Source: an uncultured Schlesneria sp. (GTDB lineage Bacteria > Planctomycetota > Planctomycetia > Planctomycetales > Planctomycetaceae). Taken from it: a stretch of 64,000 nt of DNA. The translations under genes were made by a program, and so were the position numbers. The number at the start of each line of letters is the position of its first letter. Position 1 is the stretch's first letter. A model generated the notes under the pieces. That model saw nothing but the letters and a program-made list of their open reading frames with translations. It was not told the DNA's origin and did no database searches. Shown piece by piece: positions 2,450 to 28,117 of this stretch. Location: assembly GCA_903899985.1 (NCBI GenBank), contig CAIULL010000080.1:1-64000 (forward strand), written 5' to 3'.

Positions 2450-5400
2450 TTGGCGAAAGCTATTCGAGATCGATGCGGTCTCGTTTCTGCATGTGTGTTC
2501 GCTTTAGCCATTATTGGTGCAATCACAACCTCGAGCGGGGCACCCCCGGGACCACGGCATCCGTTTCGCGAGAACGCGACGCTGCCATTTGATCGCAATT
2601 TATTAAAACGCTTCGGAACGGTGGAAGACTTGATCGCCGATCAACGCTGGGTTGAGGCGATGGGGATTCTGCAAGAGATTGTCCAGACCGAAAATAAAGG
2701 CCTGGTTCTGGTCCGCCCCGGTACCGCTGGAAGCGTCGCATCGTATCTCAATGTTGCGGCGCGCTGTAACGTGCTGATGTCTCGAGTATCAAGGGAAGGC
2801 CGGCTGGCTTATCGGCAAAAAGTCGATCCCCAAGCCAAACGGTGGTTCGAAGCGTGGCAACGAACTCGTGACGATGCGGAACTTTTGCGAATTATTCATC
2901 AGGCTTTCTTGAGTAGCTACGGTGACGATGCGCTACTCGCACTGGGTGAATCAGCTTGGGATCGTGGAGATTTCTCCACAGCCCGTTCGTGGTGGGAACA
3001 ACTCATTCCCCTTCCAGAAAATGTCAATCCCGCAAATTATCCAACAGTGCTGCGATACCCCGATGCGGAATACGATCAACCAACAATTCTCGCACGTACG
3101 GTGATGTGCTCGATACTCGAGCGGGAAGCGGTACGGGCTGCTGAAGAGATCCGTCAATTTTCTGAAAAGTATCCAACGGCCGAAGGGTGGCTCGCGGGGA
3201 AACAAGGTCTCCTCGGCGAACGACTCAAAGAAGCACTCAACGACTCGAAACGTTGGTCTCAAAAAAAATCGATTGCAGAAGTTGAGACTTTCGGTCTGGC
3301 TTCGTCGCGATTCAGAAAAGTTACCGAATCAATTGATGTCGGAGCACTGCGATGGGCTCATCAACTGCGTCCCAACCTGCTTCGTCGTCCTGTTGATACG
3401 TTTCCATTTCAAAAGGAATTTCTCAGTTATTTTCCTGTGACCTATGGCAAGATTGTTCTCGTTAACGACTGGGATGCAATTCGTGCCTGGAATATTTTAA
3501 CAGGGGAGCCCGCCTGGAAATCCGACCTTCGCGATTCGGCAATTATCTATCCTTCGACCGCCATTGAACCATCGATCATTCCAGATCAGACGAGTGTCGG
3601 CGTTCCGTTTTATACGATGACAATCGACGGCCATCGCCTGTATGCGCGAATGGGTTCCCCGGTCACGAGTTCGTCCAACCGGCAATACCGTGAACTCGAG
3701 TCGGATCTGGTCTGTTTAGACCTTTCCCAGGAAGGAAAACTGATCTGGAAGATTTCGTCACGTGAATTGTTTCGCGAAGATTCGTGGCGTTTTGAAGGGA
3801 CCCCTGTCATTGTCGATGGGCGTGCCTATTTTGCTGCCTGCCGACGACGCCCGCAACTCGAATTGATTGTCGCCTGCCTGGATGCTACTGATGGTCGCTT
3901 ACTCTGGCAACGACCGGTTGGCGGCTTTCGATCGTCGGTGGAGGACGGCTTCAATCGAGTCAGTCATTTGCTACTGACCGCAGGAGGAGGACGAGTCTTT
4001 CTTTCGACGGATGTCGGCGCCGTCGTTGCTCTCGACGATCAGGATGGACGATTGGAATGGGCAGTCACTTATGAAAGTCGAACTGACGATTCTCCAGCCA
4101 CACAAAGTAATCCAGGCCGAAAAACTTTGTTGCCACCACTGTTCCATCAGGGATTATTATTCGTTGCACCCAACGATGCCGATTTCGCGATGTGTCTCAA
4201 GGCTGATTCCGGCCAGATTGAATGGAAGCACGACTACCTGACGAATCCGATGGGACCGAATTCGGAACTGGATCGACGTGAGTATGACGCACGGCAACGG
4301 AGGGACAATCAATGGCATCAGTTGCTTGGCATCGCCGACGGAGGTGTCGCGGGACGGCTGATTGTGAGCGGGAGCTCACTCTCGGCAATTGATGTCGTGG
4401 ATGGTTCCGTCGTCTGGACGACGCCAAAAAATGAGAATTCCGTATTTGGTCGTGGGCTTCTCGCCGGCGATCAGATCCTGTTACCGGGTCGCGAATCAAT
4501 CGAAGTCTATTCGCAGCAAACCGGTCAACCCACGCGGAAGATCTCGCTGAAAACTCCAGACTCCGCACAGCAAGGTGGCAACCTGACGTTCGCAAGTGGG
4601 ATGCTGTTAGTTGCTCAACCAGATCGCTTGTCGGCTTACTTTGAATACAGCGTCTTGAAAGAGCGAATTGAACGTGACGTCACTCAACACGCAGACAACG
4701 ACTCACTCCAATTGCAACTGGCAGAAATCGAAGCGGCAGAAGGACTGATTGAAAATGCTTCCCGGCGAATTCAGCAGATCATTGAACACCATGATCAGGA
4801 AGATCCCGATCGTTTGATCCCTCGACGTCTGCTTTCGAAGCTGTTTCAAGCCGCGGGTACCGCCGCTTTCCGCGAAAACAATCTGATTTCCACACGCGAA
4901 TATTGGCAGCGAGCAATAACCTTTGCCGATGATGACGCGCGTCGAATCGAACTCACTTTCGACCTGGCTGATGTCGAAGAAGCGCTTAATCATCCAGAGA
5001 ATGCGCTGGAACAGCTGCAGAAAATTCTCGGTGACGAACGACTGGCCAAGTCCCCTCGTGAACTTGGCAGCGCGGGGCAAGACGCGGCTGAAAAGATGTC
5101 TCGACTGATTGCTGAGCATGGTCGAGATGCATATCGCTCGATCGAAGCCACAGCCTTATTGGAATTGGAAAAGCTCAGGACGGTGCCCGATGCTGATCAA
5201 CTTCGTCAACTGATCCGTACCTATCCTCATGCGTCGATACTCACCGAGGCCCAGCAACAGCTCGCTCGGTACTACCGCGAAGCGGGTGAAATTTCCCAGG
5301 CGTACGCGGTTTTTGACGAGATTCGAAAAAGTGCTGTTAATCATCAGGCATTTGTTAAATCGACGATCGCGATGATTGAATTACTTCATGATTCAGACAA

Positions 5401-16765: not shown

Positions 16766-17100
16766 TTTGAATGCCCTGGTTTTTGATCGATTTGCTGGAT
16801 GCCGTCTTGTCCGTTACCGAATTCCGCGAAAAGCGGCTTTTCGAATTGCCAAGTTCACAATCGGATGATGCGATAATGACTGAAAATCATAACAAGCAAT
16901 CCCAATATGTGTCACCGCTAAATTGCCGAACGACATTACACGAATCATCCAGATGATTATTCTCATTCATAAGACATGTCGTTTTATTTTACAGTCTTCT
17001 TCAGTTATTCAATGTTATTCATTGCCTTTCAACAAACCACGATACTAGGATGATGAGGTTGCGTGACATTTTAAATCCCGCACAAACACTTAACAGACTT
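16766..17100. other. AT-rich divergent intergenic region
   Basis: The stretch between the DUF1501 start and the first stress-island leader is AT-rich, with no gene. A perfect 7-bp inverted repeat CGAAAAG-CGG-CTTTTCG lies at 16827-16843, close to the DUF1501 start. The promoter driving the first BON leader should lie in the AT-rich part around 16960-17090, but no textbook -35/-10 pair stands out. Confidence 0.4.
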
Positions 17101-17219
17101 CGTTGGACGACAAAGTAAAAGGCACACCGGAAATCCGGAGGGCCTGTTGCAGAGTAAGCCGACGTGATTGAATGCCAATTCGGCGTTCAGCACGTCGGCT
17201 TTTTTTTTCGCCATTGGCG
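17101..17219 (+). promoter_or_regulatory. Structured leader with terminator (copy 1) upstream of BON gene 1
   Basis: Parts in order: conserved 5' block CGTTGGACGACA-AAGT-AAAAGGC (17101-17123); stem CCGGA/TCCGG (17127-17131 / 17134-17138) closed by GGC/GCC; then an intrinsic terminator with arms GCCGACGTG (17158-17166) and CACGTCGGC (17191-17199) followed by nine T (17200-17208); then a short CGCC-ATT-GGCG hairpin. The BON start GTG is only 26 bases past the T-run, so the terminator must be read through for expression. Copy 2 before the second BON gene has the same parts, and the upstream stem differs by paired changes. Family: none recognised. Ligand or factor unknown. Confidence 0.7.
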
Positions 17220-17233
17220 AGATCGGCTTGATC

Positions 17234-17881
17234 GTGAAAACAGACGAACAATTGAAGCAAGACGTACTGCAGGAACTTCGATGGGAATCTTCCCTGAATG
17301 CGACCAACGTGAATGTCGCAACGCATAACGGCGTTGTGACACTGAGTGGTTCTGTCCCGCATTATGCCGAAAAGGGCGCTGCAGAACGGGCGACCCAGCG
17401 CGTTGACGGTGTCAAGGCCATCGCCGAGGAGCTGGATGTCCAGCTCACCGACGACCGAAATCATGCCGACACCGAAATCGCCGAAGCCGTCGCGAACTCG
17501 CTGAAATGGCACGTGTGGGTTCCGAGCAGCGTTCTGGCGACCATCGAGAAGGGCTGGGTGACACTCACTGGCAGCGTCACTTTTGGATTCGAACAGAATT
17601 CCGCCGTGAGCGCCGTGTCCTATCTTTCCGGTGTGAAAGGGGTCACTAACAATATTACGTTGAAGCCAAAGGTTCAGGCGAAGGCTGTCAAAGAGGCCAT
17701 TGAGGGCGCTCTGAAACGTAACGCCGAAGTTGACGCCGAACACGTTTCGGTTTCAGCAATTGGCGGCAAGGTGACTTTGACAGGAACCATCCCTTCCTGG
17801 AACGAGCGAGATGAAGCGGGGCGAGCCGCGTGGAGTGCCGAAGGTGTCACCGAAGTCCAGAACAATCTTGCCATTTTATAG
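17234..17881 (+). CDS. Triple BON-domain protein 1
   Basis: 215 residues, cytoplasmic or periplasmic without a signal peptide. Three BON domains (bacterial OsmY and nodulation) follow one another, each with an alpha-helix start and the VxLxGxV strand: [14 protein letters not shown] near 35, [14 protein letters not shown] near 110 and [17 protein letters not shown] near 180. BON domains are thought to bind membranes or polysaccharide and are typical of osmotic/stress proteins. GTG 17234 is chosen because the aligned paralogue at 20066 starts at the same residue (MKTD/VKTD); an upstream TTG 17168 would place the start inside the terminator hairpin. The gene opens the stress island. Confidence 0.9.
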
Positions 17882-17980
17882 CCCCGCAAGGGCCATTAAT
17901 GGCTCTACATTAAAACGATAACGATGGCTGTGGAGCGCTTTCGCGCCCAGCTAAACATATTTAACAGGAAACACAATAAC

Positions 17981-18520
17981 ATGACACATCTTAATTGCGT
18001 CGTCGGGATATTTGATAAGCACACTCAGGCTGAAGATGCTGTGAAACAGCTGCAAAAAGCGGGTTTCGAGATGAAGAATCTATCGATCGTCGGTAAGGGG
18101 TACCACACCGAAGAAAACGTCATCGGCTACTACAACGCAGGTGATCGGATGCTGTACTGGGGCGAGCAGGGTGCCTTCTGGGGTGGGTTCTGGAGCCTGC
18201 TGTTCGGGTCTGCATTTTTCATGATTCCAGGTTATGGTCCGTTGCTCGTTGCAGGCCCATTGGCAGCTTGGATCGTCGCAGCTCTTGAAAGTGCAATCGT
18301 CATTGGTGGGGTCAGCGCTCTCGGAGCGGCCTTGGCCAGCATTGGGATTCCCGAAAACAGTATCCTGCAATACGAGACATCGATTAAAGCGGGAAAGTTT
18401 ATGATGCTCGTCCACGGAACCCCGGATGAAGTGACTCGTGCAAAATCGATTCTCACGACATCCGGTGCATCAAAAATCGAGCTCAACCTGGCACAACATC
18501 CTGTTGCAGTACTTGCTTGA
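17981..18520 (+). CDS. Heat-induced stress-protein-like membrane protein
   Basis: 179 residues from ATG 17981, with AGGAA about 10 bases upstream. The N-terminal 65 residues look like the general-stress YflT / GSP17M fold: CVVGIFDKHTQAEDAVKQL, then LSIVGKGYHTEENVIGYY. The middle holds Gly-rich hydrophobic helices (about 70-130), and the end has a strand pattern (FMMLVHGTPDEVTRAKSIL) like the same family's C-terminus. It is probably membrane-inserted. It follows the BON gene by about 100 bases, a gap with a GGGCCATTAATGGCTC palindrome and a GC-rich hairpin (about 17930-17951). Dps follows. Function is inferred only from family and context: envelope or general stress. Confidence 0.75.
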   Translation: MTHLNCVVGIFDKHTQAEDAVKQLQKAGFEMKNLSIVGKGYHTEENVIGYYNAGDRMLYWGEQGAFWGGFWSLLFGSAFFMIPGYGPLLVAGPLAAWIVAALESAIVIGGVSALGAALASIGIPENSILQYETSIKAGKFMMLVHGTPDEVTRAKSILTTSGASKIELNLAQHPVAVLA

Positions 18521-18628
18521 AAAACGATTCCAACCGACGGGGGGTGATCCAACCTGCCCTGTCGGCCAATCAACATATTGCGAAGGCAATTTCCGCAGAT
18601 TTTCCACGTTCTACGTAGAAATCAAACA

Positions 18629-19222
18629 ATGTCACGTTCACTCATCACAAGAAATGGTGCATTCCCCATGAAAGAACCGATCACCGCCTCAAAGCGAGGC
18701 GAAACGCAAACATTCCATATGATTCGACGGACTCCGCTCGCCCTGGATGAAACAGCCGCAGTTGCCAGTATTAATGATTTGAACCAGCTTCTGGCCGACG
18801 TCATGACGCTGCGAGATCTCTACAAAAAGCATCACTGGCAGGCATCAGGACCGTCGTTTTATATGATGCATCTGTTGTTCGATAAGCACTTCGAAGAGCA
18901 GTCTGCACTTGTTGACCTGATTGCTGAGCGAATCCAGACATTGGGTGGCGTCACGATTGCGATGGCTCCTGATGTCGCTGAAGCGACCCTCATTCCACGT
19001 GCTCCGAAAGGACGCGAAAATACGGCGACGCAAATTGCGCGGCTGCTTCACGCTCACGAAGTCATCCTGCTGGAAACGAGGGCAATGGCCCGCGATTCCG
19101 CCGCCAATGGTGATCTGGGAACGAATGATATTCTCGTCTCGAATGTCCTCCGCACCAACGAATTGCAGGTTTGGTTTCTTGCCGAACATGTCCCTTGTAA
19201 ACCCATTTGCGACGAAGAGTGA
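18629..19222 (+). CDS. dps: Dps-family DNA-binding / iron-storage protein
   Basis: 197 residues from ATG 18629; an alternative in-frame ATG at 18668 or later would only shorten the basic N-terminal tail. Dps dodecamers bind DNA and oxidise Fe(II) with hydrogen peroxide. The four-helix bundle is evident, with the inter-subunit ferroxidase residues His in KKHHWQASGPSFY and Asp/Glu in LFDKHFEEQSALVDLIAERI. The N-terminal 40-odd residues are rich in Arg/Lys/Thr, which in the family helps DNA binding. It lies in the middle of the stress island, 108 bases after the heat-stress-like gene, and is expected to be induced in stationary phase or oxidative stress. Confidence 0.93.
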   Translation: MSRSLITRNGAFPMKEPITASKRGETQTFHMIRRTPLALDETAAVASINDLNQLLADVMTLRDLYKKHHWQASGPSFYMMHLLFDKHFEEQSALVDLIAERIQTLGGVTIAMAPDVAEATLIPRAPKGRENTATQIARLLHAHEVILLETRAMARDSAANGDLGTNDILVSNVLRTNELQVWFLAEHVPCKPICDEE

Positions 19223-19372
19223 CGTCTGGCATCGCGTTGATTGGATCAAAATTCATCGAAGTCATGGGACCAACCAGCTTTTGAGATGCGTCATAGAAAC
19301 AACGCCCCTTAAGGCAATGCCGTCCGGGGAGGACGATTGGCGCCTCAGAACTGAAATGAGAGGAGTCTGATA

Positions 19373-19882
19373 TTGAATACTCTCACACAGACAACGGATA
19401 AGACGAAAACAGCACCGACAGACCACCAGGTCATTGCTCTGGTCGGTTGGTTAGTCTTATGCCTTAGCGCGTCAGGCACTGCAGTCTTCGTCTCGACTGG
19501 AGATTGGTATGCACAATTGCAAAAGCCCGCGTGGAATCCTCCCGCATGGATCTTCGGCCCGGTCTGGACTTTGCTGTATGTCATGATGGGGGTCGCCGCA
19601 TGGCTGGTCTGGCGCGAGGGGGGATGGAAAAGCCAAACATGGCCCTTGGCGTTGTTCCTGCTTCAATGGCTGCTCAATGTCCTTTGGACACCTTTGTTCT
19701 TCGGGGCACACCGCCCCGGTATCGCCTTCGCAGATATTGTGATGCTTTGGTTGACACTGGCTGCGACAACGATTTGCTTCTTTCGAATCAGCCACCGAGC
19801 CGGGACATTGCTAATTCCCTATCTGGCCTGGGTCAGCTTTGCTGCTGTCCTGAATTTTGCCATCTGGCGTTTGAACACTTAA
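19373..19882 (+). CDS. tspO: TspO/MBR family membrane protein
   Basis: 169 residues with five predicted membrane helices. TTG 19373 follows GAGGAG by 7 bases. The signature WYAQLQKPAWNPPAWIFGPVWTLLY is the family's loop-1 sequence and NVLWTPLFFGAHRPGIAF its later conserved part. TspO proteins bind porphyrins and are induced in stress; they help degrade or transport tetrapyrroles. It follows dps by 150 bases. A Pro/Thr-rich N-terminal tail of about 20 residues precedes helix 1. Confidence 0.93.
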   Translation: MNTLTQTTDKTKTAPTDHQVIALVGWLVLCLSASGTAVFVSTGDWYAQLQKPAWNPPAWIFGPVWTLLYVMMGVAAWLVWREGGWKSQTWPLALFLLQWLLNVLWTPLFFGAHRPGIAFADIVMLWLTLAATTICFFRISHRAGTLLIPYLAWVSFAAVLNFAIWRLNT

Positions 19883-19934
19883 ATGCCCGTCAGTGTAAGA
19901 ACCTGATGTTCTCGCACAGACCATAAAGACGGGG

Positions 19935-20050
19935 CGTTGGACGACACAGTGAAAGGCGACCCGATTCATCGGGGGCCGGTTACCGAGTATGCCGACGTGA
20001 TCGAATGCTATTTCGGCGTTCGGCGCGTCGGCTTTTTTTCGCCTCAGGCG
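19935..20050 (+). promoter_or_regulatory. Structured leader with terminator (copy 2) upstream of BON gene 2
   Basis: Same order as copy 1. The 5' block CGTTGGACGACA-CAGT-GAAAGGC is at 19935-19957; the stem CCGAT (19961-19965) / ATCGG (19968-19972) replaces CCGGA/TCCGG at the same place and is closed again by GGC/GCC; the terminator has arms GCCGACGTG (19991-19999) and CGCGTCGGC (20024-20032, one G-U wobble) with seven T (20033-20039); then a CGCC-TCA-GGCG hairpin (20040-20050). The BON start lies 26 bases past the T-run. The paired base changes support a real RNA structure. Confidence 0.7.
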
Positions 20051-20065
20051 AAGACAGGTTGAGAA

Positions 20066-20719
20066 ATGAAGACAGATATTCAACTGAAAATCGATGTGGT
20101 CAATGAATTGCGATGGGAACCGAAGGTGAACGCAAACGACATCTCGGTCATCGTTAAGGATGGTATTGTGACGCTAAGCGGTATGGTTCCAACGTACGCA
20201 GAAAAATGGGCCGCCGAACGGGCCACTCAACGGGTCGAAGGGGTCAAGGCGATTGCCGAATCAATGGATGTCGAATTGACGGGAATCCACGAGCACAAAG
20301 AATCGGAAGTTGCTGCTGCCGTCATGAATGCTCTGAAGTGGCATGTGTGGGTACCGAGCGTCGTCAAGGCGACTGTCGAAAATGGCTGGGTGACTTTGAC
20401 AGGCACAGTGCCGTGGGACTACCAGCGAAATTCTGCGGTCCAGTCTGTGAAATACTTGTCTGGCGTAACAGGGGTTTCAAACGACATCACCATTACACCG
20501 AGCGTTCAGGCAACCGCAGTGAAGGACGCAATTGAACGAGCACTCGAACGCGATGCGGAACTTGATGCAGAAAATATCGACGTCTGCGCCGAAGGCGGCA
20601 AAGTGACACTATCGGGCAGAACGTCCTCATGGCATGAGCGTGACGAAGCTGGCTCAGCCGCCTGGAATGCACCAGGCGTTACGAATGTCGAAAATAATCT
20701 GACGGTTTCCGCTCTCTGA
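20066..20719 (+). CDS. Triple BON-domain protein 2
   Basis: 217 residues, ATG 20066. Three BON domains with signature strands: [14 protein letters not shown] near 35, [14 protein letters not shown] near 110 and [17 protein letters not shown] near 180. It matches the first BON protein along its whole length (for example [39 protein letters not shown] and YLSGV), so gene and leader were duplicated together. No signal peptide is seen. The role is probably envelope or osmotic stress, by family. Confidence 0.9.
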
Positions 20720-22438: not shown

Positions 22439-22483
22439 TTTGTTTTACATCGTTACACCGAGACCGCATTGCCATTGTTAGAT

Positions 22484-22612
22484 GCAAGGCTTATAGTCCT
22501 TGCTGCACGCGGAAGATTAAATGAGGAGCAGCCCGGCTGTATCGGGTGGCTCGTCAATAAATAAGCCGACGTGGTCGAATCCCTTATTGGGGGCGGCCAC
22601 GTCGGCTTTTTT
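22484..22612 (+). promoter_or_regulatory. Structured leader with terminator (copy 3) upstream of kaiC
   Basis: A hairpin GCAAGG/CCTTGC (22484-22489 / 22498-22503) and a longer stem GAGCAGCCCG/CGGGTGGCTC (22526-22535 / 22543-22552, two mismatches) precede a terminator with arms GCCGACGTGG (22565-22574) and CCACGTCGGC (22597-22606) and six T (22607-22612). The terminator stem and the following TCGAAT are nearly identical to copies 1 and 2, but the upstream half is different. kaiC starts beyond the T-run, so its transcript must escape this terminator. Confidence 0.65.
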
Positions 22613-22663
22613 CGTTTAAAGGAACGCCTTATTTCCAAGACCGTCGGTAAAAACAATTACTCA

Positions 22664-24379
22664 GTGCCAGGAAATTTGCCGAAATGTACGACCGGCATTC
22701 AGGGACTCGACGAGATCACGACCGGAGGGTTGCCCCAAGGGAGGCCCACGCTGGTGTGTGGCAGTGCAGGTTGCGGCAAGACTTTGCTCGGGATCGAGTT
22801 CCTCGTCCGAGGAGCCACTCTTTTCAATGAACCGGGTGTGTTCATCGCTTTCGAAGAGACGGCCGAGGAACTTGCTCAAAACGTTCGTTCACTCGGCTTC
22901 GACCTTGAAGCGCTGATCGAGAAAAAGAAACTGGCAGTCGACTACATCTATGTCGAGCGAAGTGAGATTGAAGAGACGGGTGAATACGATCTCGAAGCGC
23001 TGTTCATCCGCCTGGGCTTTGCGATCGACTCGATCGGCGCCAAACGGATCGTACTCGATACCCTGGAAACACTGTTCGCCGGTCTTCCAAGTCCTGCGAT
23101 TCTTCGTTCGGAACTGCGCCGGCTGTTTCGCTGGCTCAAGGAAAAAGGTGTCACAGCGATCATTACGGCCGAACGGGGAAGCGGAAGTTTCACGCGACAT
23201 GGCCTGGAAGAGTATGTTTCCGACTGCGTGCTGTTATTAGATCATCGCGTCGACGGGCAGATCTCAACCCGTCGCTTACGCATCGTCAAATATCGAGGTT
23301 CATCTCACGGAACCAACGAGTTTCCATTTCTCATCGACGAAGGGGGCATTTCCGTCTTCCCGATTACATCCCTTCAACGACAGCATGAGGCCTCTTCCGA
23401 ACGAATATCGATCGGCGTACCGGCACTGGATGCCATGCTGGGTGGTGAAGGAGTTTATCGTGGAAGCAGCGTCTTGCTTTCCGGTACCGCAGGGGTTGGA
23501 AAGACCAGTCTTGCCTGCCATGCCGCCGACGCATGTTGCCGGCGGGGTGAACGATGCCTCTATATCGCTTTCGAAGAACCAGAGGCCCAGCTGTTGCGAA
23601 ACATGCGCTCCATCGGCCTCAATCTGGAACCGTGGGTGAAGAAGGGGTTGCTTCGTTTTCACGCCGCACGTCCAACAATGAACGGTTTGGAAATGCATCT
23701 GGCGAGCATTCACAAACTGGTTGAGGGATTGAAGCCTTCGCTCGTGATCGTCGATCCCATTACCAATTTCATTTCGTCAGGAACGGTTTCTGAGGCCAGT
23801 TCAATGATGATGCGGCTGGTCGATTACTTGAAGGCCAGACAGATTACGACCCTGCTGACGAACCTCAACCGAAACGAAGGAGCCCTGGAGCATACCGAAC
23901 TTGATATCTCGTCCACGATTGACACCTGGCTGCTCTTACGGGACATGGAACTGAACGGTGAGCGCAATCGGGGATTGTATATCCTCAAGTCGCGCGGCAT
24001 GTCACACAGCAATCAGATTCGAGAATTTCTTTTGACCGATCGCGGAATTCTGCTGACGGAGGTCTATCTTGGCCCCGATGGCGTTCTCACGGGTTCTGCC
24101 CGCCTCGCTCAGGAAGCAAAAGAAATGGCAACAGCGGCACAGCGCAATCAGGAAATCGAAAGAAAACGAGGAGAACTTTCCCGCAGGCAACAAGCGCTCG
24201 AGGCCCAAATCGCGGTTCTTCAATTGCAATTCCAAACGGACAAGGAAGAGATGGAACGCGATATCGCGACAGAGCAGGTGTATCTAGAAAAGCTGGAACA
24301 GGGACGTCAGGAAATGGCGTTCAGTCGCAAAGCAGAATCAAACGGGGCACCGGGAAGTTTCAAGAAAGTTCGCAAATGA
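22664..24379 (+). CDS. kaiC: KaiC-family double RecA ATPase
   Basis: About 571 residues, hexameric ATPase/autokinase in the family. CI has Walker A GSAGCGKT (about 33-40) and the catalytic Glu pair in FIAFEET; CII has GTAGVGKT (about 273) and YIAFEEP. At the CII autophosphorylation site (cyanobacterial HISTITDT) it has DISSTIDT, keeping hydroxyl residues. After CII comes a Glu/Arg-rich coiled coil of about 90 residues instead of the A-loop tail. No ATG start exists after the terminator: GTG 22664 fits the family N-terminus ([12 protein letters not shown]), while ATT 22631 has a better ribosome site (AAAGGA, 22618-22623). The end overlaps kaiB1 by ATGA. With no kaiA seen, it is probably a stress or timing switch rather than a true clock. 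Confidence 0.9.
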
Positions 24380-24714
24380 AAAGGAAATCCACGTCGAATG
24401 GCGACACAACGTCTGTAGAAGTGCCCAAGAAATGGCAATTACGTCTGTATGTTGCCGGGAAAACCCCAAAATCCATCACGGCGTTCGAGAATCTCAAGCG
24501 AATCTGCGAGGAACACCTTGCGGGCGAGTTCGAGATCGAAGTAATAGACCTGATCGATCACCCCCGGTTGGCAAAAGACGATCAGATCGTGGCCATACCG
24601 ACTCTCGTACGAAAGTTACCGAAACCGATTCGCAAGATCATTGGCGATCTGTCGGATACCGAGCGGACGCTGGTCGGCCTGCAGTTGCGTTCTGGATTGA
24701 AAATAAGGGAATAA
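24376..24714 (+). CDS. kaiB: KaiB-family protein 1
   Basis: 112 residues. Thioredoxin-like KaiB fold: [58 protein letters not shown]; the IxxxPTL strand and the following Pro-rich turn are family hallmarks. Its ATG overlaps the kaiC stop codon (ATGA), so translation is coupled. In cyanobacteria KaiB binds the KaiC CI ring after a fold switch. An N-terminal extension of about 18 polar residues is present. It is followed by a second kaiB after 9 bases. Confidence 0.93.
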
Positions 24715-24723
24715 GGCGACAGT

Positions 24724-25071
24724 GTGAAAAGTAAGAAGGCAAAAGCAACGGACGAGGTGACGACGGAAGCGGTCGACCTCACGCAGGCCCCCGAATCGAA
24801 CGAATACTTTGTGCTACGTCTATATATTGCCGGGCTTTCGCCTCGTTCGACCCTTGCTGTGGAACGTATTCAGCGTATTTGTGATCTCTATCTGGCAGGG
24901 CGTTATGAACTGACCGTCATCGATCTTTTTGTTAACCCGGAAATGGCGCGACAAGCTCAGATCGTTGTTGCCCCGACGTTGATCAAACAGTCTCCGTCAC
25001 CGAAGCGTTTATTCATCGGAGACATGTCTGACGAAAAAAAGATCTTTCTTGGCTTGAACATCGTCGTTTGA
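24724..25071 (+). CDS. kaiB2: KaiB-family protein 2
   Basis: 115 residues, GTG start at 24724 with AAGG upstream. KaiB core: VLRLYIAGLSPRSTLAVERI, LTVIDLFVNPEMARQAQIVVAPTLIKQSPSPKRLFIGD. A 28-residue polar N-terminal extension precedes it. It is about half identical to KaiB 1 by eye but differs in the C-terminus (MSDEKKIFLGLNIVV). Tandem kaiB genes behind kaiC are known in other non-cyanobacterial genomes and may give two competing KaiC partners. The histidine kinase starts 30 bases on. Confidence 0.93.
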   Translation: MKSKKAKATDEVTTEAVDLTQAPESNEYFVLRLYIAGLSPRSTLAVERIQRICDLYLAGRYELTVIDLFVNPEMARQAQIVVAPTLIKQSPSPKRLFIGDMSDEKKIFLGLNIVV

Positions 25072-25101
25072 ACCATTCCTCACTGTTCTTGAGCATCCAC
25101 G

Positions 25102-27273
25102 ATGACCACGCCAAAAACCTACAGTGAGCTACTTCAGGAAAACGAGCGATTGCGTTGGCGCCTCGAAGAAGCCGAAGCGATCGTGGAAGCAATTCGTGAG
25201 GGGATTGTCGATGCTGTGGTCATCTCCAATCCCGGTGAAAGTGTTTACACGCTGGAAGGGGCTGACCGCCCGTATCGACTGCTGATCGAAGCCATGCAAC
25301 AGGGCGTTGCGGTGTTAAATCACGATGGCCTGATTCTCTACTGCAATCCCTGCTTCGCCAATCTTTTCGCCTCGTCGAGCCAGACGCTGATTGGAACGTT
25401 GCTGGATAGATTTGTCAGTGAAACGGATTACGCCATTTGGAAAGCGATGTTACGCGATGTTGAGAATTCGCCAACTCCTAAAGAGGTTCAGCTGAACCGG
25501 CAGAACGGAACTCGATTCCCCGCATCGCTCGCCCTGTTTATATTGCCGTTACAACGGGTTTGCTTGCTGGTCACGGATTTGAGTCAGCAAAAGATCTACG
25601 ACGAACTGGTCGTCTCGAAATTGGCACTTCGTGAATCAGAAATTCGTTATCGCAGGCTTTTCGAAACCGCCAAAGACGGAATCCTGATCCTCGATACGGA
25701 AACGGGAAGAATCACGGATGCGAACCCTTATATGAGCGAACTATTGGGGTATTCGAAAGAACACTTTGCCGGCAAGGAGCTCTGGGAAATAGGCTTGTTC
25801 AGTGACCGGTCGGCCAACGAGGAAGCGGTTCGCGAGCTGCAGGAGCAAGGCTACATTCGTTTCGAGCACTTGCCGCTGGAAACAAATCTGGGTGCACGAG
25901 TTGAAGTCGAAATTGTCGCTAACTCGTATAAAGAAGACGACCACAGCGTCATCCAGTGCAATATCCGGGATATCACGGAACGCAGCCGACTGGAAGCCGA
26001 GCGTAACCGACTGGAGAAGCGGATGCAGGAACAGTCTGCGTCGCTCGAGGATCTGCACCGCCGCAAGGACGAATTTCTGGCGATGCTCAGCCACGAACTT
26101 CGTAACCCTCTCTCTCCGATCACGAGTGCTCTGCAACTGCTGGGGCTGCAAAAGAATGAAGACCGGCTGCAACATCAGGCTCGCACAATCATCGAACGTC
26201 AAGTGGGTCAATTGACCAGACTGATCGATGACTTGCTGGAAGTCTCTCGAATTACGACCGGCAAAATCCACTTGAAACAGGAGCCGATTTTGCTGAACAG
26301 TGTCGTGCAAAACGCGATCGAAACAGCTCGACCCCTGATTGACCGGCACAATCACAGTCTCATGGTGTCGATTTCACAAAAGCCAATAAGACTTTTTGCC
26401 GACGCCGCGCGACTCGAACAAGTTGTCGTGAACTTGCTGACGAACGCCGCAAAGTTTACTCATGACGGGGGCCAGATTCATGTCGTCGTGACGATCGAGG
26501 TTCAGACAGAGACTGGCGAGTGGGTAGAGGCCCGCAGTGATCCATCAGACTCTTTTTCTTCAATCGCGCGTCCGACGTTCCCCGTCAGGACGTTCGCCGT
26601 GATACGCGTCCGCGACACGGGCATAGGGATCTCACCAGACCTGCTGCTTCATGTCTTCGACCTGTTTACGCAGGCAGAGCGCTCGCTTGCTCGATCACAA
26701 GGTGGATTAGGAATTGGACTGGCCCTTGTTCAGCGAATTGTCGAAATGCACAAAGGGGAAGTCCAAGCGCATAGCGTGCCGGGCCAGGGGAGTGAATTTA
26801 TCGTACGACTTCCATTAATGGTACAGCAGGAAACACAACACCCGGAATCGAAAGCGGTCGGTTCGAAATCCAACGGGCCACGCCTGAGAATCCTTGTCGT
26901 GGACGACAATGCCGACGCCGCACAGATGTTGGGGATGGTGCTGCTCGCATCGGGACACGACGTGTTAACGGTTCATGATGGTCCATCAACATTAGATGCG
27001 TCACTCGACTTTCATCCGAATGTTGTTCTGCTGGATATCGGATTGCCAGAAATGGACGGTTATGAAGTCGCCACAAGGCTGCGTCAACAGGCAATTTTTA
27101 AAGACATCGTTCTGGTGGCAATGACCGGATATGGACAGGATTCCGACCGAAAAAGATCGCACGATTCGGGCTTCGATCACCACCTGGTCAAGCCGCCCGA
27201 CTTCGAAAAATTGAACCTCATTCTCGCTGCCGCGTCCGAAACGTTACAGTCCACGGACTCGCAAAAGGAGTAG
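25102..27273 (+). CDS. PAS-containing hybrid histidine kinase
   Basis: 723 residues, soluble. A short coiled start is followed by PAS-like domains at about 50-165 and about 185-300 (second with GRITDANPYMSELLGYSKE). The HisKA helix carries the H-box DEFLAMLSHELRNPLSP (His about 330); HATPase motifs follow: N-box EQVVVNLLTNAAKF, G1 RVRDTGIGIS and G2 GGLGIGLALVQRIVEMHKGE. A receiver domain at about 597-712 has ILVVDDN, the phosphoacceptor in VVLLDIGLPEMDGYE (Asp about 644), MTGYGQ and VKPPD. Thus it can autophosphorylate and pass the phosphate to its own receiver. Its place behind kaiC-kaiB-kaiB makes it the likely output partner, in the role SasA plays in cyanobacteria, though it lacks a KaiB-like sensor. 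Confidence 0.95.
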   Translation: MTTPKTYSELLQENERLRWRLEEAEAIVEAIREGIVDAVVISNPGESVYTLEGADRPYRLLIEAMQQGVAVLNHDGLILYCNPCFANLFASSSQTLIGTLLDRFVSETDYAIWKAMLRDVENSPTPKEVQLNRQNGTRFPASLALFILPLQRVCLLVTDLSQQKIYDELVVSKLALRESEIRYRRLFETAKDGILILDTETGRITDANPYMSELLGYSKEHFAGKELWEIGLFSDRSANEEAVRELQEQGYIRFEHLPLETNLGARVEVEIVANSYKEDDHSVIQCNIRDITERSRLEAERNRLEKRMQEQSASLEDLHRRKDEFLAMLSHELRNPLSPITSALQLLGLQKNEDRLQHQARTIIERQVGQLTRLIDDLLEVSRITTGKIHLKQEPILLNSVVQNAIETARPLIDRHNHSLMVSISQKPIRLFADAARLEQVVVNLLTNAAKFTHDGGQIHVVVTIEVQTETGEWVEARSDPSDSFSSIARPTFPVRTFAVIRVRDTGIGISPDLLLHVFDLFTQAERSLARSQGGLGIGLALVQRIVEMHKGEVQAHSVPGQGSEFIVRLPLMVQQETQHPESKAVGSKSNGPRLRILVVDDNADAAQMLGMVLLASGHDVLTVHDGPSTLDASLDFHPNVVLLDIGLPEMDGYEVATRLRQQAIFKDIVLVAMTGYGQDSDRKRSHDSGFDHHLVKPPDFEKLNLILAAASETLQSTDSQKE

Positions 27274-27277
27274 GCCC

Positions 27278-28117
27278 ATGACGAAGACCGAAAAGTCGCT
27301 TCGATTTCTGATTGTGGACGATATTCGCAATGGTGCCGATGTCTTGAGGATGTTCGTTGAATCCCTCGGATATCAAATTCACGTCACCTGCAGCGAAACT
27401 CAGTCTCTTGCCGAGGCAGCGGTCTTTCGAGCAGATCGTTTGCTGGTCGATCGGGTGATGCCAGTCGTAAATGGTGGTCGTCTCGCTAAACGTTTTCGTG
27501 AAAGCCCCGGATTCGCTCATACGAAACGGATTGCTGTCAATGGCCACAAGGCCAGTGAACATGCCGCTCGGACCATGAAGGCCGAGGCCGATTCCTTGAT
27601 CGTTAAGCCGGTCGCTTTGGCAGCAATCAAAGTGATTCTGGCAAGCGTCGTCGTCGCCGAAACAATTCGACCCGCAGCTCTTCCGATTCAGCTCGAGAAA
27701 TCTAATGACGAGCGATGTCTCTCGATCGACGAAGCACGACGGATTCGAGCAGAACGCAAATCGAAAACATTAACTCGTACCGAATGCCCATCGGTTATCG
27801 GCCAGTGCTTCATGCGGTTTCAACAAGACTCAATGGGCTCGAAGTCTGAGCAGATTGATGCCTTCTTCATCACAGACCAACTGATAGTGCAGGCATTCGG
27901 AAATCTGATTCAAGTCGAGCGACAACCGGGTACATCCTCGGTTCCGGCCAAAGTCAATGATCTGGTCAAAGAGGTCATAACTGAATTACTGGAATTGCCA
28001 CGCACGATGTTAGAATTGCTGATCGCCGAAGTCACAGAAGTCAAAGCGATCAGCATGGACCATGACATCAGTACTGTGACGGGCGAAGATGTTGTCCTGT
28101 TCTCCCTCGCCGGGTGA
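27278..28117 (+). CDS. Degenerate receiver domain fused to a DUF2294-like domain
   Basis: 279 residues. It starts 5 bases after the kinase stop, with the ribosome site AAGGAG inside the kinase gene end. Residues 1-125 form a receiver: acidic pair IVDD (14-15), phosphoacceptor RLLVDRVMP (Asp 58) and VKPV (Lys 110), but the switch Thr/Ser position is Asn (IAVNG, Asn 88). A charged linker leads to about 165-279, which resembles DUF2294: IGQCFMRFQQDSMG, then DQLIVQAFGNLIQVE, then MLELLIAEVTEV and ISTVTGEDVVLFSL. DUF2294 has no settled role. The fusion, as the output end of a Kai/histidine kinase locus, is not one I recognise. Confidence 0.75.
   Translation: MTKTEKSLRFLIVDDIRNGADVLRMFVESLGYQIHVTCSETQSLAEAAVFRADRLLVDRVMPVVNGGRLAKRFRESPGFAHTKRIAVNGHKASEHAARTMKAEADSLIVKPVALAAIKVILASVVVAETIRPAALPIQLEKSNDERCLSIDEARRIRAERKSKTLTRTECPSVIGQCFMRFQQDSMGSKSEQIDAFFITDQLIVQAFGNLIQVERQPGTSSVPAKVNDLVKEVITELLELPRTMLELLIAEVTEVKAISMDHDISTVTGEDVVLFSLAG

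Follow-up and report, generated by a model that had tools for sequence, protein, structure and literature searches.

In ANTAR systems such as those of EutV and NasR, the regulator has a receiver and an RNA-binding output domain, with which it holds an antiterminator overlapping a terminator; one such regulator acts on several leaders. The ribonucleic antiterminator (RAT) leaders of LicT and BglG carry a hairpin with purine internal loops that overlaps the 5' arm of the terminator and is weak without the protein, while riboswitches of the cyclic di-GMP (c-di-GMP) class, made of aptamer and terminator, recur many times in a genome, in front of unrelated genes. For general stress regulons, the usual explanation is a sigma factor or a DNA-binding regulator. 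In this study we describe a family of repeated RNA leaders in a 64,000-nucleotide stretch of DNA (the window; contig CAIULL010000080.1, positions 1 to 64,000) from an uncultured Schlesneria sp. of the Planctomycetota, where copies precede two BON genes and kaiC. We rather favour the reading that these leaders are planctomycete cis-acting transcription attenuators in which a long hairpin, the rod, is held by a trans-acting factor, most likely a protein of the MpsC/DUF2294 family (PF10057).

The leaders appear to work like ANTAR or LicT antitermination, yet by the features tested they are not an ANTAR target. Each has a single long rod with internal loops, whereas ANTAR leaders have two hairpins with hexaloops in which A1 and G4 are conserved; beyond the rod, this comparison covers hairpins in the fold of the 55 bases upstream. 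The candidate output domain here is MpsC/DUF2294, and no ANTAR protein was found in the window's genome (G000) at E <= 1e-5. Compared with RAT leaders as generally described, sequence, length and number of internal loops differ, and the RAT targets are sugar operons. Unlike the c-di-GMP riboswitches, the leaders lack an Rfam match in the window and at eight further loci: none of the 4227 models of Rfam 15 reached its gathering score in the window, and relaxed thresholds, applied to the window stretch and the eight loci, gave only matches far below the gathering scores. This agrees with the first-pass annotation, made from the letters of the window, which had recognized no described family. The Rhodopirellula-1 motif, entered in Table 1 of PMC2864571 as probably cis-regulatory, from Proteobacteria and Planctomycetes, with RNA status '?' and no Rfam entry, may be the same RNA, as far as that table entry allows a comparison. 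The main texts of a 26-genome survey (PMC8632094) and an attenuator survey (PMC2965389) contain none of the planctomycete names searched for. A literature search that did not extend to supplements or to a 2017 study of 224 candidate RNAs found no account of this leader, nor any RNA-related role for DUF2294/MpsC, and the sole 'DUF2294' paper it returned concerns a fungal secretome.

Two leaders before the BON genes had been described in the first-pass annotation, with a common 5' block of about 23 bases, a stem that differs in sequence yet stays paired, nearly identical terminators with T-runs, and short CGCC/GGCG hairpins right after them. All of these are present. The 5' blocks CGTTGGACGACAAAGTAAAAGGC (17101-17123) and CGTTGGACGACACAGTGAAAGGC (19935-19957) differ at 2 of 23 bases, the stem reads CCGGA/TCCGG in copy 1 and CCGAT/ATCGG in copy 2, and the terminator stems are GCCGACGTG...CGTCGGC, with T-runs ending at 17208 and 20039. 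A third element, before kaiC, had been missed. The elements of the window, with bit scores from the covariance model R1 that we built from aligned copies, are:

17098 to 17208, + strand: element copy 1, before BON gene 1; R1 match of 94 bits, among the model-building copies
17103 to 17162, + strand: rod hairpin (proposed antiterminator) of copy 1, from the family structure placed on the sequence
17158 to 17208, + strand: terminator hairpin and T-run of copy 1; CCGA at 17159-17162 is common to the rod
17209 to 17219, + strand: small CGCC/GGCG hairpin past the T-run of copy 1, a trait of the BON copies
19932 to 20039, + strand: element copy 2, before BON gene 2; R1 match of 78.8 bits, also a model row
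19937 to 19995, + strand: rod hairpin (proposed antiterminator) of copy 2, from the family structure placed on the sequence
19991 to 20039, + strand: terminator hairpin and T-run of copy 2
20040 to 20050, + strand: small CGCC/GGCG hairpin past the T-run of copy 2
22469 to 22497, + strand: promoter-like TTGCCA-17-TATAGT upstream of element copy 3; it scores 9.55 when the motif is derived from all copies, against a 99th percentile of shuffles of 9.1 in the cross-validated test
22504 to 22613, + strand: element copy 3, before kaiC; R1 match of 98.3 bits, also a model row

The window holds a 67-base repeat of 87% identity at a spacing of 2833. Copies 1 and 2 each fold better than 200 of 200 dinucleotide shuffles (z -6.85 and -4.27); since the terminator alone would account for much of these z values, recurrence at 17 places in the genome is the better control. 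The small CGCC/GGCG hairpin, found in both BON copies, is absent from most other copies inspected and is therefore not counted as a family trait.

That the leaders form one RNA family is virtually certain. After a DNA search of the window's own genome and its relatives, which gave many partial matches, we aligned 55 copies chosen with the terminator pattern and thus carrying the GCCGACG...CGTCGGC stem and T-run; on this alignment RNAalifold gave 27 pairs, and one or more double changes occur in 20 of these. R1 finds at least 17 places in the 8 Mb genome of the window at E <= 2.1e-7, two antisense overlaps having been dropped; six of these were rows of the model and 11 were not. There are matches in 14 of 40 relatives (E <= 1e-6), in 18 of 392 genomes sampled across the phylum (E <= 1e-3), and in 46 of 149 genomes sampled from the family of G445, which is probably the window's own family, as coordinates of G015, G004 and others recur in that sample. 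The last two counts are lower bounds because searches that covered over 40 genomes used stricter filters and scored few candidates in each. An exact pattern of the element, searched in the genomes of 84,980 species, occurs at no fewer than 118 loci, and among the matches listed 117 have planctomycete titles, Phycisphaerae included, the other being the Kiloniellaceae bin of L205; the cultured planctomycete Bythopirellula polymerisocia Pla144 is one of the carriers. Viral contigs gave no match to this exact pattern, no looser search having been made there, and a virus origin was rejected on that result. We collected 196 distinct copies by choosing matches by hand and merging identical elements; antisense matches that overlap through the near-palindromic terminator were excluded, as were matches truncated at a locus end and most of those below ~45 bits. 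Divergent copies occur in several families and classes. The absence of structural homologues, which the first-pass annotation had named as grounds for giving up its reading, is thereby excluded, and the search of planctomycetes with a covariance model that it had suggested does find copies before BON, kaiC and other stress genes.

In the rod, helices alternate with conserved purine-rich internal loops. The 5' side reads UCGG / AWG / ACU / AAA / UAA / AG / RGC / AA / CCCGG, followed by the loop, and the 3' side CCGGG / AG / GCY / CG / UUA / ACG / AGU / AAG / CCGA; the apical loop varies in length and letters (columns 35-61). The rod base, UCGG/CCGA, includes the bases with which the terminator 5' arm begins, so that on paper rod and terminator are mutually exclusive, and it is highly likely that they are alternative structures. 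Mean energies are -33.2 kcal/mol for the terminator hairpin and -25.8 kcal/mol for the rod stretch. Across 150 rows, 94.7% of the cells of 18 rod pairs are paired, 14 of the 18 pairs have changes on both sides, and double-change cells number 221 against 37 in shuffles; none of 500 shuffles reaches either the pairing or the double changes, figures that are flattered by an alignment fitted to 11 of the 18 pairs. The rod covariation score is 0.33, compared with 0.009-0.097 when the rod is slid. Covariation among 124 rows of less than 85% identity is strongest at pair 24-72 of the rod (z 26.8) and pair 106-130 of the upper terminator (z 20.4), with a modest signal from the ACU/AGU helix, which lies outside the model (14-85 CG to UA in 2 rows, z 3.3; 15-84 UA to AU in 8 rows, z 3.4) and is imperfect in both BON copies (ACA versus AGU). 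At the rod base, the CGG, which is not part of the terminator, hardly varies (GC at pair 8-91 in 149 of 149), and when the 5' part is folded by itself this CGG pairs with CCG in 119-121 of 124 predictions. We considered a universal hairpin 5' of the rod and do not claim it, as the 55 bases upstream fold only mildly better than shuffles (mean z -1.25, 38% below -1.5, 20 mononucleotide shuffles each), and a kink-turn reading of the lower internal loop was rejected as a poor fit by eye.

The position of the elements relative to genes makes it very likely that they are cis-acting leaders. The nearest downstream open reading frame (ORF) of the 196 elements lies on the same strand in 157 cases, on the opposite strand in 35 and is lacking in four (p 1e-19), at a median distance of ~53 bases, and the nearest upstream ORF is on the same strand in 97, opposite in 85 and lacking in 14 (p 0.41), with ORFs called mechanically, which adds noise to the strand counts. 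Expectation maximization yielded a promoter-like -35/-10 motif, TTGCTTTTCC and then GTATAAT, which mostly starts 70-100 bases before the conserved CGG; under two-fold cross-validation, 90 of 173 upstream regions pass the 95% threshold set by dinucleotide shuffles, and 62 the 99% threshold. The motif is present for the kaiC copy and ambiguous for the BON copies (scores 5.4 and 2.6). The proposed order of aptamer-like part, terminator and gene is thus borne out by 196 distinct copies with compensatory changes, same-strand downstream genes and a promoter-like motif upstream. A promoter downstream of the terminators, the other ground named for abandoning this order, is disfavoured for about half of the copies tested, which have the motif upstream, and the BON copies stay ambiguous.

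The downstream genes are varied, and many are stress-related or sensory. Taking the longest same-strand ORF that starts within 350 bases past the element, we obtained 193 downstream proteins in 103 clusters, each named by the Pfam match of one member; the largest are MpsC (21), KaiC (11), BON (9) and CheB/CheR-PAS (7). Others encode CsbD, TspO, a sigma factor, a P-type cation ATPase, acetate kinase, phosphoketolase and carbohydrate phosphorylase, as well as fatty acid desaturase, ice-binding, PEP-CTERM, type III polyketide synthase (PKS), MCRA-family and HlyD/CusB proteins. Since Pfam was scanned for 73 of the 193 proteins, 30 of them without a match, the regulon is only partly described.

The element tracks one protein family closely. 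In the phylum sample, 12 of the 14 genomes with a strong element encode MpsC, against 16 of the remaining 378 (p 1.1e-13). The 14 are the 18 element genomes minus four weak ones (G389, G428, G112 and G409), and with all 18 the counts become 12 of 18 and 16 of 374 (p 1.9e-11). Among the 40 relatives, 11 have both element and PF10057, three the element only, two MpsC only and 24 neither, an agreement in 35 of 40 (p 1e-5). KaiC, counted at a best E < 1e-25 with RadA/RecA-like matches left out (34 of 154 genomes), occurs in two of the 14 strong-element genomes and 32 of the 378 others (p 0.35), and was rejected as the driver of the co-occurrence. ANTAR was rejected as the effector on the basis of a weak association and its absence from the window's genome, which is one of nine among the 14 strong-element genomes without an ANTAR match at E <= 1e-5.

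A recurring layout has one MpsC gene (MpsC1) divergent from the element and a second (MpsC2) downstream, as in L270, L271, L275 and L281. Among 292 distinct elements, MpsC lies downstream within 1.6 kb in 58 (within 250 bases in 37), a divergent MpsC lies within 600 bases in 56, and both flanks are occupied in 27, counts that differ from natural frequencies in that some of the loci were fetched for MpsC. In G452, which has one match (E <= 1e-5), MpsC, element and MpsC2 stand side by side, and in G449, likewise with one match (E <= 1e-5), a divergent MpsC adjoins the element. A tree built from 78 MpsC domains over 112 columns, in which the bootstrap had not settled, separates an MpsC2 clade of 38 rows (100/100) from an MpsC1 clade of 40 rows (100/100), which holds an element-linked sub-clade of 29 rows (95/99). 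As the majority of rows stem from loci that were retrieved because of an element, independence is limited to the rows obtained by searching genomes. In the phylum sample, the genomes that contribute an MpsC2 row are G054, G372, G370, G168, G015, G180 and G291, six of the seven having the element, and 10 of the 11 MpsC1 rows outside the sub-clade are from genomes without an element match, the exception being G404. A control search for MpsC gave a match in Bacillus subtilis.

In the window itself, a response regulator encoded in the apparent kaiC operon carries MpsC as its output domain. The genes concerned are:

17234 to 17881, + strand: BON gene 1, its GTG start chosen from the alignment to copy 2; BON E 1.7e-45 (frame 17228-17881)
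20066 to 20719, + strand: BON gene 2; BON E 3.2e-47
22664 to 24379, + strand: kaiC, start uncertain; PF06745 E 3.8e-108
24376 to 24714, + strand: kaiB 1; PF07689 E 4.4e-27
24724 to 25071, + strand: kaiB 2; PF07689 E 5.4e-22
25102 to 27273, + strand: PAS histidine kinase with receiver domain
27278 to 28117, + strand: response regulator with MpsC/DUF2294 output domain, proposed switch effector; ATG at 27278

The receiver-MpsC frame (27215-28117) matches Response_reg at E 3.2e-14 and MpsC at E 2.8e-12, both above cut-off. Its PF10057 score is 47.1 bits (cut-off 23), against 132.3 for MpsC1 and 66.4 for MpsC2 of G000, and seven of 11 long MpsC proteins scanned are receiver-MpsC fusions, the window's own and six more. 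The stress cluster runs in the order BON, YflT, ferritin-like (Dps-type), TspO, BON, DksA/TraR zinc finger and DUF1573, and continues with kaiC, two kaiB, histidine kinase and receiver-MpsC. Both BON genes had been said to start 26 bases past the T-run, which holds for BON gene 2 (ATG 20066); for BON gene 1 (GTG 17234) the distance is 25.

We propose the following mechanism. Soon after the start of transcription, the nascent RNA would fold into the rod. Unaided, the stronger terminator (mean -33 kcal/mol) would prevail and the gene would be off; a trans-acting factor holding the rod would let RNA polymerase read through, an ON-type switch. This factor is probably a protein, and its identification with MpsC/DUF2294, acting alone or as a response-regulator output domain fed by histidine kinases, is tentative. 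As the MpsC2 gene is itself often found behind an element, feedback would result. We infer all three of the antitermination direction, RNA binding by MpsC and a stress signal. More tentatively still, MpsC/DUF2294 may be a new class of RNA-binding antitermination domain that holds the rod of ~17 leaders here, a stress and KaiBC regulon including its own genes, and works alone, in MpsC1/MpsC2 pairs and as a phosphorelay output.

Several observations weigh against this mechanism and its assignment to MpsC. The UCGG/CCGA helix on which the proposed switch would turn is nearly invariant, with double changes in none of its four pairs, and is supported by conservation rather than covariation. The genomes are related, so that the p values overstate independence, and ANTAR is mildly enriched too (five of 14 strong-element genomes, 33 of 378 others, p 0.007). 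No MpsC was found, even with a sensitive profile, in the element genomes G011 (four elements), G010, G020 and G273, and in G090 it appears only at E = 0.097; conversely, G291 has an MpsC2 relative and no element match in the phylum search. Of the 28 phylum genomes with MpsC, 16 have no strong element, and the family must therefore do something else as well. MpsC may be no more than a preferred target, or simply travel along with the element. The predicted MpsC fold (helix, two strands, two helices, two strands; predicted local distance difference test score, pLDDT, 95) had no match in the PDB at E <= 0.001 (best VIA Z 6.9, rated common), and without a convincing structural relative it gives no hint of RNA binding; equally, the absence of a match says nothing about such binding. 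According to PMC6689103, deletion of mpsC in Staphylococcus aureus showed no growth phenotype and mpsC is not near mpsAB outside staphylococci, so that the family name gives no function.

A small-molecule riboswitch is a less probable account, in which the rod is an aptamer, its loops bind a second messenger or stress metabolite, the ligand blocks the terminator, and MpsC is a frequent target. The conserved internal-loop letters G12, A22, A27, G69 and G74 (85-93% of the 124 rows), the order of aptamer, terminator and gene, and the element genomes without MpsC would all suit it, as would tandem pairs such as L054 2948-3060 and 3072-3179, an arrangement known among riboswitches. However, the downstream genes (BON, KaiC, CheB/CheR, CsbD, TspO, acetate kinase, type III PKS and others) have no metabolite in common, so that a broad second messenger would be needed, and the co-occurrence with MpsC is left unexplained. 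Between the two kinds of control that the first-pass annotation had put forward, a riboswitch and a protein-controlled attenuator, the evidence leans to protein. Slightly less probable again is an attenuator controlled by another RNA-binding protein, with MpsC only a member of the regulon: G011, G010, G020 and G273 have elements and no MpsC, and a rod with A.G mismatches every 5-6 bases may resemble a protein site, yet among the families tested (ANTAR, KaiC and MpsC), ANTAR (p 0.007) and KaiC (p 0.35) track the element less closely. Small RNAs that act in trans, with their 3' end at the terminator and with genes behind them only by chance, would account for the strong terminator, the promoter-like motif upstream and the many copies, and are very improbable given a same-strand downstream ORF in 157 of 192 cases at a median of ~53 bases, a random upstream orientation, and conserved bases common to rod and terminator for which a small RNA has no need. 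Least probable are constitutive terminators or a mobile repeat, of the repetitive extragenic palindromic (REP) or miniature inverted-repeat transposable element (MITE) type, without regulation: copies are clustered, the base of the terminator stem is nearly invariant and two weak matches (35 and 34 bits) show only the terminator, but the rod has compensatory changes that a terminator does not need and divergent copies are spread across several families and classes.

One recurring RNA structure appears to govern many unrelated genes for stress, sensing and other functions, apparently including a kaiC-kaiB operon, in a phylum where little is known of regulation. Should the partner be MpsC/DUF2294, this would assign a function to a domain that also occurs in Firmicutes, and ANTAR would be joined by a second class of RNA-binding response-regulator outputs. 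The covariance model makes the RNA family usable as it stands.

Some further arrangements were observed. Window positions 22664-28117 look like a single planctomycete operon of kaiC, two kaiB, PAS histidine kinase and receiver-MpsC. Tandem double-MpsC proteins are encoded at L195 3208-4167, L229 1370-2305 and L188 5464-6324. Elements stand in tandem, 9-13 bases apart on one strand, at L054 2948-3060 and 3072-3179 and at L132 6195-6306 and 6320-6429, with further tandem pairs at G443:C2 216261-216489 and G441:C210 1312-1542, and they form islands on both strands, six in ~12 kb in L244 (G450:C557) and six in ~6 kb in L245 (G453:C91). An element at L205 550-660, with a partial MpsC match beside it, is in a Kiloniellaceae (Alphaproteobacteria) bin, possibly as a misbinned planctomycete contig. 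By eye, only the terminator half is recognizable at L033 3910-4008 and L038 12252-12364 (35 and 34 bits). On the minus strand of L042 (G005), at ~3985-4034, a BON2-type rod that lacks both its terminator and its BON gene stands directly before an apparent DksA/TraR gene; this rod is apparently a deletion remnant.

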